This document shows positions 17,150-24,888 of a DNA stretch of 43,297 nucleotides, in pieces; position 1 is the stretch's first letter; each line of letters begins with the position of its first letter. The stretch spans positions 1 through 43,297 of the forward strand of contig RECD01000078.1 of NCBI GenBank assembly GCA_007694185.1, given 5' to 3'. The notes beneath the pieces were generated by a model. It was not told the DNA's origin. It did not search any database and worked only from the letters and a program-made list of their open reading frames with translations. The stretch comes from Planctomycetaceae bacterium. Lineage in GTDB: Bacteria; Planctomycetota; Planctomycetia; Pirellulales; Pirellulaceae. Position numbers and translations under genes: made by a program.

Positions 17150-20128
17150 ATGAAGTCATTCACCGCGCCGCTGTTCGTCGCCATGCTGGTGGTCGGGTCG
17201 GTCGCCCGTGCCCAGGAAGATTTCCCGCCGTTGGCGGATGTGATCAAGGGCTACGAGCAAATCTCCTCTTCGGATCAGCAAAACCCGCGAGGGCTGTTCA
17301 ACGTTTGGAAGCGGGAAAAAGACGCGCAGTTGCTGTGCGAATTGCCCAAAAATTTCGCCGGCAAGCGGTACTTTGTCGCGCTCACCGTCGGCAGCGGCGA
17401 TCGCTACGCCGGGCTCCAGTCGGGCGATTGGGTAATCGAGTGGCGGCGGTACGACAAGCGGATGGCGGTGCTGGCTCCCAACCTGGACATCCGGGCCGAA
17501 GGGGAGGCGGAGGCCAAAGCGTCTGTCAAACGGTTGTTCACCGATCAAGTCCTGATGGATATCCCGATTCTTGCCATCGGCCCGACCGGTGGCCCCGTGA
17601 TCGATCTGGACCAACTGCTGATCAACAACGCCACCAAGTTCTTCGGATCCTCGGTCCGGGTCACCAACCCGCAATTGGTGTCATTGGGAGCCGCCAAGGT
17701 CTTCCCGAAGAATGTCGAGTTGGCGTTCGAGATCGTCGGCATGGGCGGCCAACTGCAGACGCTGCACTACTCTTTTAGTGAGGTGCCCAGCACCGGCACC
17801 GGATACAAGCCGCGTCTGGCTGACGAACGGGTCGGATACTTCACGACGTCGTACACCGACCTGAGCAAGTACCAAGATGACGACACGCGAGTTCGCTACA
17901 TCAACCGTTGGCACTTGCAGAAGCGCGACCCGAAGCTGAAGTTGAGCCCGCCGAAGGAACCGATCCGGTTCTACATCGAGCACACGACTCCCGTACGGTA
18001 TCGCCGCTGGGTGAAGGCCGGCGTCGAGTATTGGAACAAGGCTTTCGAACAGGTTGGCCTGATCGACGCGATCGTGGTCGAATACCAGGATGCCGACAGC
18101 GGCGTTCACATGGAAAAGGACCCGGAGGACATCCAATACAACTTCGTTCGCTGGTTGAACAACAACGTCGGGACGGCGATCGGGCCGAGCCGCGTCCACC
18201 CCGAAACCGGCGAAATCCTCGACGCCGACATCATCTTGACCGACGGTTGGATTCGGCATTTTAACTTCAATTACAACGACCTGATGCCGAAGTTGGCGAT
18301 GGAAAGTGTCGCTCCCGAAACGTTGGCGTGGCTGGGTAAGAACCCGAATTGGGATCCGCGCGTTCGATTGGCGTCGTCCGAGAACAAGAACTTCTTGCGT
18401 TCCGAGTACGCCCGGCAAGCCACCCAGCCGATGGGCGGTTTCGGCATGGCTCAAGCTGACCCGGCGCTGCTGGGCGATGACGAGTACGACGGCCTGTATG
18501 GGCAGGTCAGTCAGAAAAACGGGCTTTGCATGGCTGCTAGCGGCATGCAGCTCGATCTCGCCCTAGCCCGAATGAATTGGGCGATGGTCCTGTTGGCTGA
18601 CGAAGTCGCCGAAGAGGAAAAGGAAAAGAAGAAGAAGCAGGAAGCCGAGGAGAAGAAAAAACAAGCGGAGGATGGTGACAAGCAGGCCGCGGATGGCAAG
18701 CCCGCCGAAGCCAAGGAGGAAACGCCCAGGGATCAGCCGAAACCCGCCGAGCCGACGGTTGCCGAAAAGTCGGCCGAGCCGAAGTCGGATACGGATCTGC
18801 TGGACGGTATCCCCGAATGGTTTGTCGGCCCGCTGTTGGCAGACTTGGTCGCTCACGAAGTCGGCCACACGCTCGGGTTGCGGCACAACTTCAAGGCTTC
18901 CGCCGCAATGAAGCTGAGCGAAATCAACAGCCCGGAGGTGAAGGGGACCAAAACGATCACCGCCTCGGTGATGGATTACACCCCGATCAACTATCGCTAC
19001 GAAGCGGGTGAGATCCAAGGCGATTACGGGATGACCGACATCGGCCCCTACGATTACTGGGCGATCGAGTACGGCTACACTTTCGATGACAAGAAGTTGC
19101 CCGAGATTCTCAAGCGGTGCAGCGAACCGGAATTGCAGTATGCGACCGATGAGGACACCAGCGGCCCCGATCCGTTGGCGACCCGATATGACTTCAGCGC
19201 CGATCCGCTCGACTACGCGGAAGAGCAGATCAAGCTCGCGGCCCTCTACCGCGACCGCTTGCTGGACAAGTTCGTCCGAGATGGGCAAAGCTGGTCGCGG
19301 GCTCGACGCGGTTACGAGTTGACCCTGTCGATCCAGATGCGAGCCGTCAGCATGATGGCCAACTGGGTAGGTGGTGCCTTTGTGCATCGCGATAAGAAGG
19401 GAGACCCGGGGGATCGGCCACCGATCGAAGTCGTGCCGGCCGAACAACAACGGGCGGCACTCGAATTCGTCATCGAGACGACCTTCAAGGACGAGGCCTA
19501 CGGGTTGACCCCGGAATTGCTCGAGCGGATGTCGGTCGACAAATGGCTCGACAGCGGCGTCCGATCGTCGATCGCGTCCGAGGCGACTTGGCCGATCCAT
19601 GATCGGATCCTCGGCATGCAGGCTTCCGCACTCACCTTGTTGATGAACCCCACGACGCTCCGGCGGGTGCTCGACAACGAGATGCGGTTGCCCGCCGAGA
19701 CCGACGCGCTGACGCTGCCCGAGCTCCTCGATCGGCTCACAGCCGCAGTTTGGAACGAATTGGACAAGGAGTGCCCCGAAGGCCGCAACGATCGTCAGCC
19801 GATGATCAGCAGTTTGCGGCGGAACCTGCAACGGGAACACGCACAGCGGCTGATCGATCTGGTCCTGAAGGAGCCCTCCGACACGGCCGCTTTCAAGCCG
19901 ATCGGGACGTTGGCCAAGATGCAGTTGCGTCAGCTCAAGGCGCGGATCGGTACGACCCTCGAGACCTGCGCCGGCAAGATGGACGCCTATTCGGACGCCC
20001 ACCTGACAGAAACGCATGAACGGATCACCCGCGTGCTCGAAGCCGGTTTCTTGGCGGGCGGTCTGCCGCAGGGCGGTTCGCAGCAGATCATCCTGCTCGG
20101 GGGCGAAACGCCGGAAAACGCTCGCTGA
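17150..20128 (+). CDS. Secreted zinc-dependent metalloprotease (HExxHxxGxxH, DUF5117/DUF4953 type)
   Basis: A 992-residue protein with a signal peptide ('PLFVAMLVVGSVARA'). The zinc motif 'HEVGHTLGLRHN' is at residues 569-580, followed by the Met-turn region 'SVMDYTPINY', which is characteristic of met-zincins. The N-terminal half matches the DUF5117-like part ('FYIEHTTPVRYRRWVKAGVEYWNKAFEQ' region) and the C-terminal half the DUF4953-like part of this bacterial family. It probably acts outside the cytoplasm on proteins; the substrate is unknown. A low-complexity Lys/Glu/Ala/Pro stretch of about 60 residues (roughly 486-547) sits just before the zinc motif and looks like an inserted flexible linker. 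The gene is monocistronic, with a strong terminator 47 bases after its stop. Confidence 0.92.
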   Translation: MKSFTAPLFVAMLVVGSVARAQEDFPPLADVIKGYEQISSSDQQNPRGLFNVWKREKDAQLLCELPKNFAGKRYFVALTVGSGDRYAGLQSGDWVIEWRRYDKRMAVLAPNLDIRAEGEAEAKASVKRLFTDQVLMDIPILAIGPTGGPVIDLDQLLINNATKFFGSSVRVTNPQLVSLGAAKVFPKNVELAFEIVGMGGQLQTLHYSFSEVPSTGTGYKPRLADERVGYFTTSYTDLSKYQDDDTRVRYINRWHLQKRDPKLKLSPPKEPIRFYIEHTTPVRYRRWVKAGVEYWNKAFEQVGLIDAIVVEYQDADSGVHMEKDPEDIQYNFVRWLNNNVGTAIGPSRVHPETGEILDADIILTDGWIRHFNFNYNDLMPKLAMESVAPETLAWLGKNPNWDPRVRLASSENKNFLRSEYARQATQPMGGFGMAQADPALLGDDEYDGLYGQVSQKNGLCMAASGMQLDLALARMNWAMVLLADEVAEEEKEKKKKQEAEEKKKQAEDGDKQAADGKPAEAKEETPRDQPKPAEPTVAEKSAEPKSDTDLLDGIPEWFVGPLLADLVAHEVGHTLGLRHNFKASAAMKLSEINSPEVKGTKTITASVMDYTPINYRYEAGEIQGDYGMTDIGPYDYWAIEYGYTFDDKKLPEILKRCSEPELQYATDEDTSGPDPLATRYDFSADPLDYAEEQIKLAALYRDRLLDKFVRDGQSWSRARRGYELTLSIQMRAVSMMANWVGGAFVHRDKKGDPGDRPPIEVVPAEQQRAALEFVIETTFKDEAYGLTPELLERMSVDKWLDSGVRSSIASEATWPIHDRILGMQASALTLLMNPTTLRRVLDNEMRLPAETDALTLPELLDRLTAAVWNELDKECPEGRNDRQPMISSLRRNLQREHAQRLIDLVLKEPSDTAAFKPIGTLAKMQLRQLKARIGTTLETCAGKMDAYSDAHLTETHERITRVLEAGFLAGGLPQGGSQQIILLGGETPENAR

Positions 20129-20174: not shown

Positions 20175-20215
20175 GCCAGCCGAAGTCGTGCTCACGACTT
20201 CGGCTGGCTTTTTTT
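20175..20215 (+). terminator. Rho-independent terminator of the metalloprotease gene
   Basis: A perfect 14-bp stem (20175-20188 with 20195-20208), six-base loop and seven Ts (20209-20215). Confidence 0.92.
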
Positions 20216-20294: not shown

Positions 20295-21083
20295 TCACCA
20301 GATGTCCGCCTCGACGAGCTGGCGGGTGGCCTGATTGGCCCAGTCGCGGTTCGCGTGGGGACTCGCGGGACTGGGGTGGAGGATGCGGGCGATCCGCGGC
20401 GCCGCCTTTGGGTTGTTGATCACCCGCCGCAGGCAGGCTTCCGCGAAGCCGCCGACGCCGACCACCGTTTCGGGACGGAGGAGCTCGATCACCTTTGCCA
20501 AGTGTCCGTCGCAAACCGCATCGAGCGGCTGACGCTCGGCCCCCGGAAGCTTATCGGGAGTGCGGTTGCGACCGCTCGATTCCATGAAAACGAGCGGGCA
20601 GTAATTGATCACATAGTGATGTTCGAAAAAACGCTCGGCGGTGCCGAAACGGTCGCGAAACAGGCCCCACAGTCGCTTGCCGCTGACCTCGCTCCGCTGG
20701 CATGCGAAGCCGACGACCGGCCGCTTGGGGTGTTCTGGCACCGGCTTACCGATCGGGGCGTCGATTCCCATCCAGTCGCGCACCGCTTCGATTTGACCGA
20801 ACGGAACGCCGGTTTGAGCCATGCCCCATGGGCCGGGGTTCATTCCCAAGAAGAGGACTCGGACCGTTTCCGGACGGCAGAGTCGGAGGTAGGCGCGATG
20901 GGCCGGCCAGGCATAACCCAGCGGGTTGTAGACGTGCGTGATCGGCGGGCTGAAGACCAGCGAATCGACCGCTCGGGCCAATCGCTGGGCCGCCAATTCC
21001 AAGCCGCGCAGCGGCGCTTGCACGGGCCGTTTGCCGCTGAAGTCTGAAGGCGGTTCGGGTGACGGTGGCATCTCGGATCTCAT
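20295..21083 (-). CDS. SMUG1-type uracil-DNA glycosylase
   Basis: A 262-residue protein of the single-strand-selective monofunctional uracil-DNA glycosylase family, which excises uracil and oxidised pyrimidines in base excision repair. Motif 1 'GMNPGPWGMAQTGVPFG' (80-96) and the DNA-intercalating loop 'HPSPASPHAN' (236-245) are both intact, and 'NYCPL' (160-164) supplies the base-contacting Asn. The first 25 residues are Pro-rich and not conserved. The start ATG 21083 overlaps the stop of the upstream AroE-like gene (ATGA); the frame remains open to 21146. It is the last gene of a three-gene operon with a zinc-ribbon membrane protein and a degenerate AroE. Confidence 0.92.
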   Translation of the reverse strand: MRSEMPPSPEPPSDFSGKRPVQAPLRGLELAAQRLARAVDSLVFSPPITHVYNPLGYAWPAHRAYLRLCRPETVRVLFLGMNPGPWGMAQTGVPFGQIEAVRDWMGIDAPIGKPVPEHPKRPVVGFACQRSEVSGKRLWGLFRDRFGTAERFFEHHYVINYCPLVFMESSGRNRTPDKLPGAERQPLDAVCDGHLAKVIELLRPETVVGVGGFAEACLRRVINNPKAAPRIARILHPSPASPHANRDWANQATRQLVEADIW

Positions 21084-21916
21084 ATCGCCAGATACTCCTC
21101 GAGCGCCTCGGCGATCAATTCGTGGTTGGGGGTTTGGCCGGTCCAACTGCGGAGCGCGATCACCAGCCGATCGACCTCCGATTCGATCACCGTGACCGTC
21201 TGCGCAATCCCGAGATCGGGGCAGCGAAAATCAGCAGTCAGGTTGTTCGGATGGGGTAGGTCGATCAACAAGGACGCGGGATGGAGGCCGCCGCTGAGGG
21301 CGGGTCGCAGGGTCCGCAGCGGGTCTTCGACCGGCACACCCTTGGTGGCTTTCGCGGGCGATCGCGGGGTCCGGAGCAATAACAGCGGTTCGGACATTTC
21401 GGCTGGTGTGAGCTGGGATACGGGCGGGGGCAAGTCGACCGAGTGCGGCCCGCTGATCACGGCGGCAGATTCCGCATCCAGCGGGCAGGTCGCCCGCAGG
21501 GTGGTCTCAGACCTCTGTTGATACTCCCGCACCCGGCCGATGACCGTTTCGGCGAGAAAATGGCAACCGGTCCAGCAAGCCTGGCCACCGGCGGCGGGTG
21601 CTTCGAGCCGCAGTCCGTCACACCAGCCCGCCGCGGGGTGTTCGGGCGCAGCTTGTTCGTGGGCGGTCGTCGAACGCTGCCGAAGCCAGTCGGACGCTTG
21701 GCTTTGATGTGGATGGGCTATCAAGGCGCCCCGAAACCGCAACGCCTCCGTCCCACGGATGGCAGCGGCGAGCGAGTCCGGCGAAACTTCGAACGATAGG
21801 CAGAACCAGTCGAGTTTCAGATCTGCCAACGCTCGCGTGATGCAGAATTGAGCGGGATTACCGGCGATCGGAAACCCGAGCACGCAGACGACGGGTTGAG
21901 ACGGCGAGTCAAGCAT
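21080..21916 (-). CDS. Degenerate shikimate dehydrogenase homologue (AroE-like), probably non-catalytic
   Basis: A 278-residue protein with the length and ends of shikimate dehydrogenase: 'VVCVLGFPIAGNPAQFCI' corresponds to the substrate-domain start, 'FEVSPDSLAAAIRGTEALRF' to the following helix, and 'LRSWTGQTPNHELIAEAL' to the family's C-terminal helices. The key residues are lost: the SxS shikimate loop is replaced, the catalytic Lys after the 'PH' turn is Gln ('IAHPHQSQ'), the NTD motif is missing, and no GxGGxA nucleotide loop is visible. It is therefore unlikely to reduce dehydroshikimate and may bind a ligand or a partner. ATG 21916 overlaps the zinc-ribbon gene's stop by eight bases, and its own stop overlaps the SMUG1 start, so the three are translationally coupled. 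Confidence 0.7.
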   Translation of the reverse strand: MLDSPSQPVVCVLGFPIAGNPAQFCITRALADLKLDWFCLSFEVSPDSLAAAIRGTEALRFRGALIAHPHQSQASDWLRQRSTTAHEQAAPEHPAAGWCDGLRLEAPAAGGQACWTGCHFLAETVIGRVREYQQRSETTLRATCPLDAESAAVISGPHSVDLPPPVSQLTPAEMSEPLLLLRTPRSPAKATKGVPVEDPLRTLRPALSGGLHPASLLIDLPHPNNLTADFRCPDLGIAQTVTVIESEVDRLVIALRSWTGQTPNHELIAEALEEYLAI

Positions 21917-22457
21917 CGGCACGAGTCGGGCGGCCGACCACACCGATCACGGCAGCGAGGCCGGCGACGATTGCCGCGGCGAGCATTCCGAGCATCCCTT
22001 TCCGCAGCCAAGCGGAACGTTCATCTGCGATCTGGCGGTACGGGTACGGCATCGCGAGCTCTTCGCTGAACGATTCGATCTGTTGCCACTCGCGGACCAA
22101 TTGCGCGGCGGGGAGTTCCGGGTAATACGTTTCGATCTCCACGATGTGGTCGGCCGTGCTCCCGGGGACCGTGATCGCCCAGCCCCGGATCAGACAGAAA
22201 CCACCCAAGATGGCGGCGATAGCGGCGACGAAAAAGCAGGCGACAAAAGCCACTCGGCTGCCGGACAGGCTGCCGGCTTGGGAGAGCGATGCCGCGACCG
22301 CACCACTTTCCGATGCGGTCGCGTCCAGCCGACGAAGTTCACCCAACTTGGGGAGGTTGACGGTTTGCCCGCAATGCGGGCAATTCGTCTGCGACCCGGC
22401 TTGGCTGGCCGCCACGTTGAACGACGTGCCGCAGGAGGGACAGGGAAACGCTGGCAT
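21909..22457 (-). CDS. Zinc-ribbon membrane protein
   Basis: A 182-residue protein. C6/C9 ('FPCPSCG') and C26/C29 ('NCPHCGQTVNLP') form an MJ0042-like zinc ribbon. Two membrane helices follow, at about 68-92 ('VAFVACFFVAAIAAILGG') and 153-175 ('MLGMLAAAIVAGLAAVIGVVG'), with a polar segment of about 60 residues between them. Function is unknown. It is the first gene of a coupled operon with the AroE-like and SMUG1-type genes. Its ribbon resembles the one on the large protein at 2644-4899. Confidence 0.8.
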   Translation of the reverse strand: MPAFPCPSCGTSFNVAASQAGSQTNCPHCGQTVNLPKLGELRRLDATASESGAVAASLSQAGSLSGSRVAFVACFFVAAIAAILGGFCLIRGWAITVPGSTADHIVEIETYYPELPAAQLVREWQQIESFSEELAMPYPYRQIADERSAWLRKGMLGMLAAAIVAGLAAVIGVVGRPTRADA

Positions 22458-22873
22458 CGTGTTGGCTTAAAGGGTCCGAGGTTGTCGGTCAGTGGTTTCC
22501 GGAGGGCGGCGGCAACCCGTCCAAATGATCGATCAAGAAATCGCGCTGCGTCCTATTCGAACAGAAAAGCTGCGGGATGAAAGAATCGAAACCGGCGCCC
22601 CGTACGTGGCGACACCGCACGATCGCTAGGCACCCGGCGTGGGCGACGAACAGCCGCGAATCGTTTGTTTTAACCGGCTGGGGCGATCGGGCAAAGCCAG
22701 TGGAAGGCTTTCTCGGAAGAAGGTGCGAGCCCCCACGAGGATGGCGAAATGAACCAGAAATCCGTGGCGGCAATGACCGCAGAACTGGACCTGAGACCGA
22801 AAACGACTAGAATCGCAGAGGGGCAGTCGCCAACTACCCGACCCTGACCAGTCGTCGTCTGATTCGGACGACC

Positions 22874-23030
22874 ACCCGAACGGGCTCCACATCGGACTGA
22901 ATCGTCCGCATCACGCGACCGCTCAGCGACACATTCAACATCCGCAAACATTTTTGGACCAAGCTGGGACGTGGTCCAAAGTGTCGTCTGATGGTTCGGG
23001 ACCGCGAGCCAAACGGTCGGGTGAGGCGGT
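22874..23030. repeat. Long imperfect inverted repeat
   Basis: The core is a perfect 9-bp inverted repeat, TTTGGACCA (22953-22961) and TGGTCCAAA (22972-22980), with a ten-base loop. Further pairing with mismatches and bulges can be followed outward for about 15 bases, and an outer segment near 22874-22890 (CACCCGAACGG) faces a similar inverted one near 23015-23030. It could be a structured RNA or a MITE-like remnant. Confidence 0.4.
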
Positions 23031-23312
23031 GTGAGGTTGGGTCGTTAATCATCGCGTCGAGTCGAATCTCAGGATGGGGACACTCGGCGAACGTCAACCG
23101 GCGACAATTCCGTGGGTCTGCGAGTTAGAGCGTCTGCTCATCGGCTCGTGGGTGGGCCCACGGGTTTGCCAAGGGTGTCACCGCGAACAAGTCGGCCTAA
23201 CAGTAATTTTTTGCCAATTTGGCGAGGATCGTTCGGCGGTTTAGGACGCGTGGTAAACTTGGGAAGAAAGCTGCCGCTGGACTTTCACAATTGATCTGAA
23301 TCAAGCACGGTA

Positions 23313-23317
23313 AGGAG
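23313..23317 (+). promoter_or_regulatory. Ribosome-binding site deciding the sigma factor start
   Basis: AGGAG lies eight bases before TTG 23326. It would overlap the alternative GTG at 23317, so the TTG start is favoured. Confidence 0.6.
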
Positions 23318-23325
23318 TGCAGGCC

Positions 23326-24888
23326 TTGTACGAAACGCTTTTGGATGACTTCGAAGACGACTCGCTGCGTTCGGCGGACGTGGAAGACGGCTTTCGCAAG
23401 CTTCCGGTGGATGACGATGATGACGACGTCGTCGCCGTAGCCGCTGCGAGGTCGGGGGACGGCGAGGTTCAGTTGGAGAGCCCGGACGAACTGTTGTCCG
23501 GGTTTGACGACAACGAATCGTGGTCGGACGACCCGGTCCGAATGTATTTGACGCAGATGGGTGAGATCCCCCTGCTGACACGTCGCCAAGAGGTCGAGCT
23601 GGCCAAGCGGATCGAGGAGACTCGTCGCCGCTTCCGCACGAAGCTTTTGGAGAATCACTACGTCCTGTTGGAGGCGTTCAAGACGCTCCGCAAGGTGCAT
23701 CGCGGCCAGTTGCCGTTCGATCGGACGGTCCAGGTGTCGGTCACGGACCATCTCGAGAAGGAACAGATTCTCGGGCGCTTGCCTCACAACCTGCGAACGT
23801 TGGCGGTGTTGTTGCGTCGCAATCGGCATGATTGGCAGACCGCGCTCAGCAAGAACGCCTCAGAACGACGGCGAAATCAGGCCTGGCAATCGCTCGCCCG
23901 TCGTCGGCGTCGTGCCGTCCGGTTGATCGAGGAACTCGGCTTGCGGACTCAGCGGATCGAAAACCGGATCGGGCTGCTGGAAAAATTCCTGCATCGCCTG
24001 GACGAGATCGAGACCCAGATCAAGGGGTTGGGGCGTTCGAAGCAGGACGCCGAACAGCGAGCCAAGTTGCTTCACGAGCGGCGTCAGATCATGACCGCTT
24101 GCCAAGAGACCCCCACTTCTCTCCGTAACCGCGTCGGTGTGCTCAATCGGGTTTACTCCGATTACCAGCAGGCTAAGCGGGAATTGAGCGAGGGGAACCT
24201 GCGGTTGGTCGTGTCGATCGCGAAGAAGTATCGCAACCGCGGGCTGTCGTTTCTCGACCTGATCCAGGAAGGGAACGCCGGCCTGATGCGGGCGGTCGAC
24301 AAGTTCGAATACCGCCGTGGCTTCAAGTTCTGCACCTACGCGACTTGGTGGATCCGTCAAGCGATCACCCGAGCCGTGGCGGACCAGAGCCGCACGATCC
24401 GGATTCCGGTACACATGGTCGAAACGATGAGTCGCGTTCGTAACGTGGCTCGGCAGTTGCTCCAGGAACTCGGCCGTGAGCCGACGATCGAAGAGACCGC
24501 CCGGCGGGCCGACACGACCGTCGAGGAAGCGCGTCGGGTGTTGACGATGAGCCGATTTCCGATCTCTCTCGATCGGCCCGTCGGCAACAGCGAAGACAGC
24601 CAATTCGGCGACCTGCTGCCGGACGGAACGGCCGAAAGCCCGCAGATCGGTGCCGCCCAGGAGATGCTCAAAAACCGCATCACTAACGTGTTGAAAAGCC
24701 TTTCCTACCGGGAACGCGAGATCATCAAGTTGCGTTACGGTCTGGGTGATGGCTACAGCTACACGCTAGAAGAGGTCGGCCACATCTTCAAGGTGACCCG
24801 GGAGCGGATCCGTCAGATCGAGGCCAAAGCGGTTCGCAAGCTGCAACAGCCCAGCCGCAGCCAGGATCTGGTAGGCTTTCTCGACTGA
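23326..24888 (+). CDS. rpoD: Primary RNA polymerase sigma factor (sigma-70 family, RpoD/SigA)
   Basis: A 520-residue sigma factor that directs RNA polymerase to -35/-10 promoters. A very acidic N-terminal segment (poly-Asp near residue 30) stands in place of a typical region 1.1. Region 1.2 begins at '[19 protein letters not shown]', region 2 has the highly conserved '[17 protein letters not shown]' and '[18 protein letters not shown]', and region 4.2 has '[16 protein letters not shown]' ending in '[13 protein letters not shown]', as in primary sigmas. A spacer of about 200 residues separates regions 1.2 and 2, as is common in group 1 sigmas. The start is TTG 23326 by Shine-Dalgarno spacing; GTG 23317 would add three residues. 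A strong terminator follows, so it is probably monocistronic. Confidence 0.93.

Follow-up and report, generated by a model that had tools for sequence, protein, structure and literature searches.

Gene duplication yields pseudoenzymes as a general class, and the case described here resembles that class in that a dead paralogue is retained while a related enzyme is still present in active form. The protein belongs to the shikimate dehydrogenase family and can be compared with two described members. With canonical AroE (TIGR00507; PDB 1wxd, 1nyt and 1nvt) it has in common the whole predicted fold, at a Z score of about 20, and a weak sequence match in the N-domain; the catalytic Lys/Asp, glycine loop and S-x-S motif of AroE are all missing from it. 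The 5-ketofructose reductase (KFR) of Gluconobacter (PDB 7cok/7col) shares an NPT motif in place of S-x-S with the Pirellulales paralogue that we call AroE2, and it groups with AroE2 with 100/100 support. However, KFR keeps the Lys and NTDG that our protein has lost, and the EE(F/Y)L tail of AroE2 is absent from the aligned part of KFR and from six KFR-like Pirellulales proteins. One KFR is described as active on 5-ketofructose, and another bacterium's putative shikimate dehydrogenase, similar to that KFR, as inactive (PMC7954740). Literature searches on shikimate dehydrogenase with pseudoenzymes or planctomycetes listed no paper on a pseudoenzyme of this family. The gene beside ours encodes an ordinary SMUG1 uracil-DNA glycosylase with both active-site motifs, comparable to that of Geobacter metallireducens (PDB 5h93); the oddity lies in the adjoining gene. 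In the Brig1 study, SMUG1 serves as a laboratory control and Planctomycetota appear among the Brig1 homologues (PMC11078745). We put at roughly two in three the probability that the adjoining gene encodes a selected pseudoenzyme derived from AroE2, which is folded, does not carry out hydride transfer and has both of its ends kept by selection.

Three overlapping genes and a predicted AroE-like fold

The locus lies in a 43,297-nucleotide stretch of DNA from a Planctomycetaceae bacterium (contig RECD01000078.1), referred to here as the window. The original prediction placed an operon of a zinc-ribbon protein, a dead AroE homologue and SMUG1 at positions 21080-22457. The list of open reading frames and direct reading of the sequence give three overlapping minus-strand frames for these proteins (Table 1), and both translational overlaps are confirmed, including the ATGA that couples the AroE-like gene to SMUG1; the interval itself needs correction, since SMUG1 (21083-20295) falls outside it. 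A longer, 287-aa AroE-like frame with a GTG start runs from 21943, but the ATG is common to the genus and the start motif M-x-D/E-S-P is conserved within it. The SMUG1 protein matches Geobacter SMUG1 with E = 4.3e-81 and PF03167 with 38.2 bits (cut-off 24.3). Several zinc-ribbon models match the 182-aa protein, all below their cut-offs (19.5 bits against 20.9 for TIGR02098, MJ0042-type, with the CxxC pairs present), and its hydrophobic stretches, read by eye, are probably membrane-spanning.

Table 1. Coordinates of features of the three-gene locus, in positions of the window.
Feature	Positions	Strand	Basis
SMUG1 uracil-DNA glycosylase	20295..21083	-	GMNPG and HPSP intact; homology to Geobacter metallireducens SMUG1
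AroE2 pseudoenzyme (favoured reading), 278 aa, ATG start	21080..21916	-	Open reading frame, PF08501, AlphaFold2 model, genus-conserved start
4-nt overlap of AroE2 stop and SMUG1 start, ATGA	21080..21083	-	Direct reading
C-terminal EALEEYLAI, the AroE2 C-terminal motif	21083..21109	-	Kept in active-looking and dead members
Gln71 codon at the catalytic Lys position	21704..21706	-	Alignments; codon read directly
GFPIAGNPAQF, the AroE2 signature loop (GxPxAGNPxQ) replacing the shikimate-binding S-x-S	21845..21877	-	Alignments
8-nt overlap of zinc-ribbon stop and AroE2 start, ATGCTTGA	21909..21916	-	Direct reading
Zinc-ribbon (CxxC...CxxC) protein, 182 aa, two hydrophobic stretches	21909..22457	-	Sub-cut-off zinc-ribbon models

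The flanking DNA was also inspected. A plus-strand frame at 17150-20128 (HEVGHTLGLRHN; metalloprotease-like by eye) is followed at 20176-20215 by a perfect 15-bp inverted repeat (CCAGCCGAAGTCGTG / CACGACTTCGGCTGG) and then a run of T, which together likely form an intrinsic terminator facing the SMUG1 end. At the other end, a gap of ∼860 bases without an obvious gene (22458-23316) separates the zinc-ribbon gene from a divergent frame at 23317-24888, sigma-factor-like by eye, which shows 96.8% identity to its counterpart in genome G003.

For the AroE-like protein, Pfam Shikimate_dh_N (PF08501) matched residues 22-96 of the 287-aa frame with E = 3.1e-5 and 24.6 bits (cut-off 27), and in the genome search the same model reached 27.3 bits, just above the cut-off. 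NCBIfam aroE gave 15.4 bits (cut-off 200.2), and the C-terminal half had no significant Pfam match. An AlphaFold2 model built from 70 family sequences (pLDDT 87.2, pTM 0.88) had Thermus AroE 1wxd as its best structural match (Z 20.7 over 229 residues, 3.0 Å), and the best 50 rows of a Foldseek search were all chains of the shikimate dehydrogenase family. Since the 70-sequence alignment contains intact enzymes, the model was repeated with eight degenerate sequences only, giving pLDDT 80.0, pTM 0.83 and Z 20.2 to 1wxd over 231 residues. Both models match AroE, and the predicted fold is therefore independent of the intact relatives in the alignment; the protein is modelled over its full length as a two-domain AroE-like fold. 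Structure prediction and fold search thus bear out the AroE assignment originally made, and a fold outside the AroE family, named beforehand as the contrary outcome, is rejected on two predicted models from different alignments.

Ancestry and active site of the AroE-like protein

Sequence comparisons place the parent of this protein in the Pirellulales paralogue AroE2, on the KFR branch of the shikimate dehydrogenase family, and not in canonical AroE. AroE2 is marked by GxPxAGNPxQ in place of S-x-S, even with Lys and Asp present, and by a C-terminal EE(F/Y)L, both of which the window protein carries in our alignments. N-domain profiles, which differ in depth (24 intact AroE2, 6 KFR-like and up to 50 AroDE sequences), score it at 78.5, 54.6 and 14.1 bits respectively, AroE2 leading AroDE by 64 bits. 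All 24 degenerate proteins score best on the AroE2 profile, and a canonical control (G015b) prefers the AroDE profile, with 70.7 bits versus 55.1 on AroE2. Among solved structures, KFR 7cok comes nearest to an intact AroE2 (L111; E 6.5e-85), ahead of AroE 1nvt at 7.1e-56. A 42-row tree splits AroE2, KFR and the KFR-like proteins from canonical AroE with support of 100/100; its canonical side holds 13 AroDE domains, AroE 1nvt and one canonical Pirellulales AroE, with no dead rows, and the dead proteins were placed by profile scores and not by this tree. Another tree, with a single AroDE row and many long branches, nested canonical AroE within the KFR group. The match of L111 to 7cok, the 100/100 split and the profiles all indicate the KFR branch and do not support the descent from shikimate dehydrogenase itself that was first proposed. 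The relation of intact AroE2 to 5-ketofructose reduction is one of homology, and the activity is only putative.

Aligned to its intact relatives, the window protein has Gln71 at the position of the catalytic Lys (PHK to PHQ) and HFLA in place of NTDG, with the catalytic Asp gone. It has no GAGG nucleotide-binding glycine loop, of which one Gly is kept in 92% of the dead clade described below but not here; the Gln of MLVNQ is replaced by Arg and the Asn of AVNC by Asp. With Lys, Asp and glycine loop all substituted or lost, the claim of a dead active site stands. Having lost the catalytic Lys/Asp pair and its dinucleotide loop, the protein should be unable to transfer hydride. The missing shikimate-binding serines had also been taken as a sign of death; their absence is real (AGNPAQ occupies the site), but we rejected it as such a mark, since intact AroE2 proteins with both catalytic residues lack both serines too.

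The survey for a second, intact aroE that had been suggested found one on contig C138, an AroD-AroE fusion with TIPHK, NTD, GAGG and S-x-S intact, which rules out that AroE2 is the genome's only aroE, now broken. The fusion is probably the pathway shikimate dehydrogenase in these genomes, and with it present the aromatic pathway does not need AroE2.

Distribution and gene neighbourhood of AroE2

We found AroE2 matches in 52 of 60 genomes (the window's own and 59 relatives of the order); the eight genomes without one indicate that the gene is dispensable. Of 119 genomes drawn from the phylum, six besides our own gave matches, and all six fall outside the order; comparison of the two surveys indicates that the family is concentrated in the order. 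Both catalytic residues are kept in 28 of the 52 matches, Lys only in 2, Asp only in 3 and neither in 19. AroE2 proper, which leaves out G008 and G019 (grouping with KFR) and G037 and G056 (unplaced), is present in 48 of the 52 genomes, and 24 of these keep both residues while 24 have lost one or both; the G045 sequence, though cut off by a contig end, is counted. On an independent AroDE tree of 55 rows (without G003, G020, G046, G058 and G011) there were at least seven changes of state among 47 genomes, with loss and gain not distinguished. The dead clade that includes the window's genus comprises 12 rows (support 99/97); all 11 AroE2-bearing rows lack Lys and Asp, and the twelfth (G034) has no AroE2 match. 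Its proteins range from 266 to about 370 aa, with a very variable middle. AroE2 is dead too in G003, which belongs to the same genus and lies outside the tree, and dead copies are carried by the Roseimaritima records L091 and L093 and by the single-contig genomes G010, G015 and G032.

A second large degenerate group, with GCPAAGNP or GCPAAGDP, has lost the catalytic Lys and kept TDG (L110, L114, L115, L117, L128, L129, L148, L149, L153, L159, L162 and L163). Four of its records (L110, L114, L128 and L149) bear the title Candidatus Kuenenia, apparently in error, since they share neighbours with Planctomycetaceae records. Locus set A2 comprised 69 of 80 loci, with L098, L102, L112, L113, L114, L127, L137, L147, L149, L157 and L164 left out as near copies, truncated, garbled, ambiguous or C-terminus-only matches. 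The search for viral copies returned two pattern matches, neither of them a relative.

SMUG1 occurs in 12 of the 60 genomes, and in seven of these AroE2 lies beside or near it (7/52 AroE2-bearing genomes, three genera): the five genomes of the window's genus, G015 and G017, the last with one membrane-protein frame between the two genes. The other adverse outcome named beforehand, a gene order unique to this genome, thus did not occur either. The zinc-ribbon gene, on the other hand, adjoins AroE2 only in the window genome (G000) and G003; in G001 and G004 two frames come between them, one for a coiled-coil protein and one, on the opposite strand, for a membrane protein, and G002 has no zinc-ribbon homologue at E 0.001. 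Because the neighbours differ in this way across G000-G004, G015 and G017, we conclude that the link of AroE2 to SMUG1 is older than the genus and that the zinc-ribbon gene joined them recently and is no obligatory neighbour. The three genes therefore do not form a conserved operon.

This neighbourhood, together with the ATGA overlap and the intactness of SMUG1 itself, could be read to mean that AroE2 is an accessory of SMUG1, its AroE-like body binding the glycosylase or an abasic-site intermediate in base-excision repair. We consider this unlikely. SMUG1 lies elsewhere in five genomes (G010, G014, G019, G027 and G032), and the catalytic residues of AroE2 have been lost in 13 genomes without a SMUG1 match, so that the loss is not tied to SMUG1. 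The neighbourhood may also be a single event inherited by one clade. Among 47 genomes, dead AroE2 is found with SMUG1 in 10 and without it in 12, and intact AroE2 with SMUG1 in 1 and without it in 24; the raw Fisher test gives p 0.0012, which shared ancestry may explain, and an independent-pairs test had only 2 supported pairs, SMUG1 mostly not differing. We did not accept the association of dead AroE2 with SMUG1 on this basis, and gene order is the one argument for the proposed role linked to DNA repair. A link of the locus to defence systems was likewise rejected, since PADLOC had no model for AroE2 or SMUG1 and gave one weak zinc-ribbon match (E 0.034).

Other neighbours of AroE2 were recorded as well. 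The dethiobiotin synthase gene bioD lies directly 3' of AroE2 in 5 of the 52 genomes (G006, G009, G038, G042 and G059) and within about 5 kb in 9, adding G030, G048, G049 and G057, beside intact and dead AroE2 alike (for example L104:5995-7538). The arrangement probably reflects an ancient connection with biotin genes; the window's clade has bioD at another place. A class I methyltransferase that is not a clear BioC (L104:5066-5884) lies within 5 kb in 34 of 122 loci, and in 32 of the 34 it is upstream on the same strand. Another frame, which encodes a membrane protein and runs divergently from AroE2 (L027:4819-6072 and L028:2291-3409), has weak homologues in G015 and G017. The antisense overlap of its long N-terminal part with the AroE2 start means that its true start is probably further in and that the match may partly be antisense AroE2. 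Directly after AroE2 we observed a membrane-like protein at L029:7930-8694 (G032), L035:3866-4735 (G017) and L093:7040-7786 (Roseimaritima sediminicola); the two scanned copies, from G032 and G017, had no Pfam match.

Selection on the two ends and a possible role of the protein

Within the window's genus, one close pair (G001/G004) gave an AroE2 dN/dS of 0.238 overall, with 0.064 (95% bootstrap 0.020-0.141) for the N-domain (residues 1-82), 0.382 (0.258-0.542) for the middle and 0.086 (0.024-0.216) for the C-terminus; the corresponding values for AroDE, SMUG1 and the zinc-ribbon gene were 0.038, 0.101 and 0.155. In a wider set that passed filters on identity, dS and length (24 intact and 31 dead pairs), whose pairs share sequences and are not independent (G001/G004 recur as L087/L088), the N-domain was slower than the middle in most pairs, intact ones included. 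Since the N-domain is slow in intact AroE2 too, the contrast is partly inherited from the normal constraint on the enzyme. Nonetheless, strong purifying selection on the N-domain has outlasted the loss of the catalytic residues. For columns conserved in at least 95% of intact AroE2, retention across 12 dead-clade sequences is 0.56 in the N-domain (30 columns), 0.19 in the Rossmann part (48) and 0.47 in the C-terminus (16). Loop residues Gly, Asn, Pro and Gln, like EEY in the tail, persist in 83-100% of the dead clade; for the pair of Glu in the C-terminal motif the figures are 83% and 100%.

These data bear on the possibility that AroE2 is a redundant enzyme in slow decay, its work done by AroDE and its frame a relic. 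Such decay would fit the repeated changes of state of the catalytic residues, the variable length and middle of the proteins, the genomes without a match and the intact AroDE. However, the pair G001/G004 has dN/dS far below 1 at both ends, the frame is open in each of the 11 dead-clade rows that have AroE2 and in G003, and the C-terminal Glu residues persist. No AroE2 frame is broken in the five genomes of the genus, and dN/dS in the one pair is not near 1, unlike what a pseudogene would show. A selected pseudoenzyme is thus most likely, and a relic, already disfavoured, is improbable. That AroE2 is still an enzyme, with a changed chemistry through other residues, seems to us very improbable: the fold is kept, the signature loop sits by homology at the ancestral substrate site, and the Asp for Asn and Arg for Gln are constant in the five genus genomes, but Lys, Asp, Asn, Gln and glycine loop are all substituted, congeners differ from one another at the Lys and Asp positions, and the Rossmann part retains so few of the enzyme's conserved residues.

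In the selected pseudoenzyme that we favour, what selection holds is the N-terminal domain, which carries the GxPxAGNPxQ loop, and, at the C-terminus, the helix that ends in EEYL. Together these two ends may provide a surface that binds a partner protein or small ligand and that the active ancestor would already have used, and the former Rossmann domain may now be a loose spacer. The most likely role would be that of a non-catalytic binding module co-expressed with SMUG1, and SMUG1 could be the binding partner. Co-translation would keep AroE2 and SMUG1 in step, which is not by itself proof of joint action. A bolder proposal, to which we give little credence, is that AroE2 always had a second, non-catalytic job, carried by the GNPxQ loop and EE(F/Y)L helix, and in the window's clade has now become an obligate partner of SMUG1 in base-excision repair. 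If true, the second job would explain why Pirellulales keep AroE2 after repeated losses of its catalytic residues.

The family also carries a warning for annotation, in that an intact AroE2 (L111) passes the NCBI aroE cut-off with 247.2 bits against 200.2. Half of the AroE2 genes in this sample (24/48) have lost one or both catalytic residues and are kept all the same, which provides a natural series from active-looking enzyme to pseudoenzyme within the order and opens to experiment the question of which functions other than catalysis a metabolic dehydrogenase can have.
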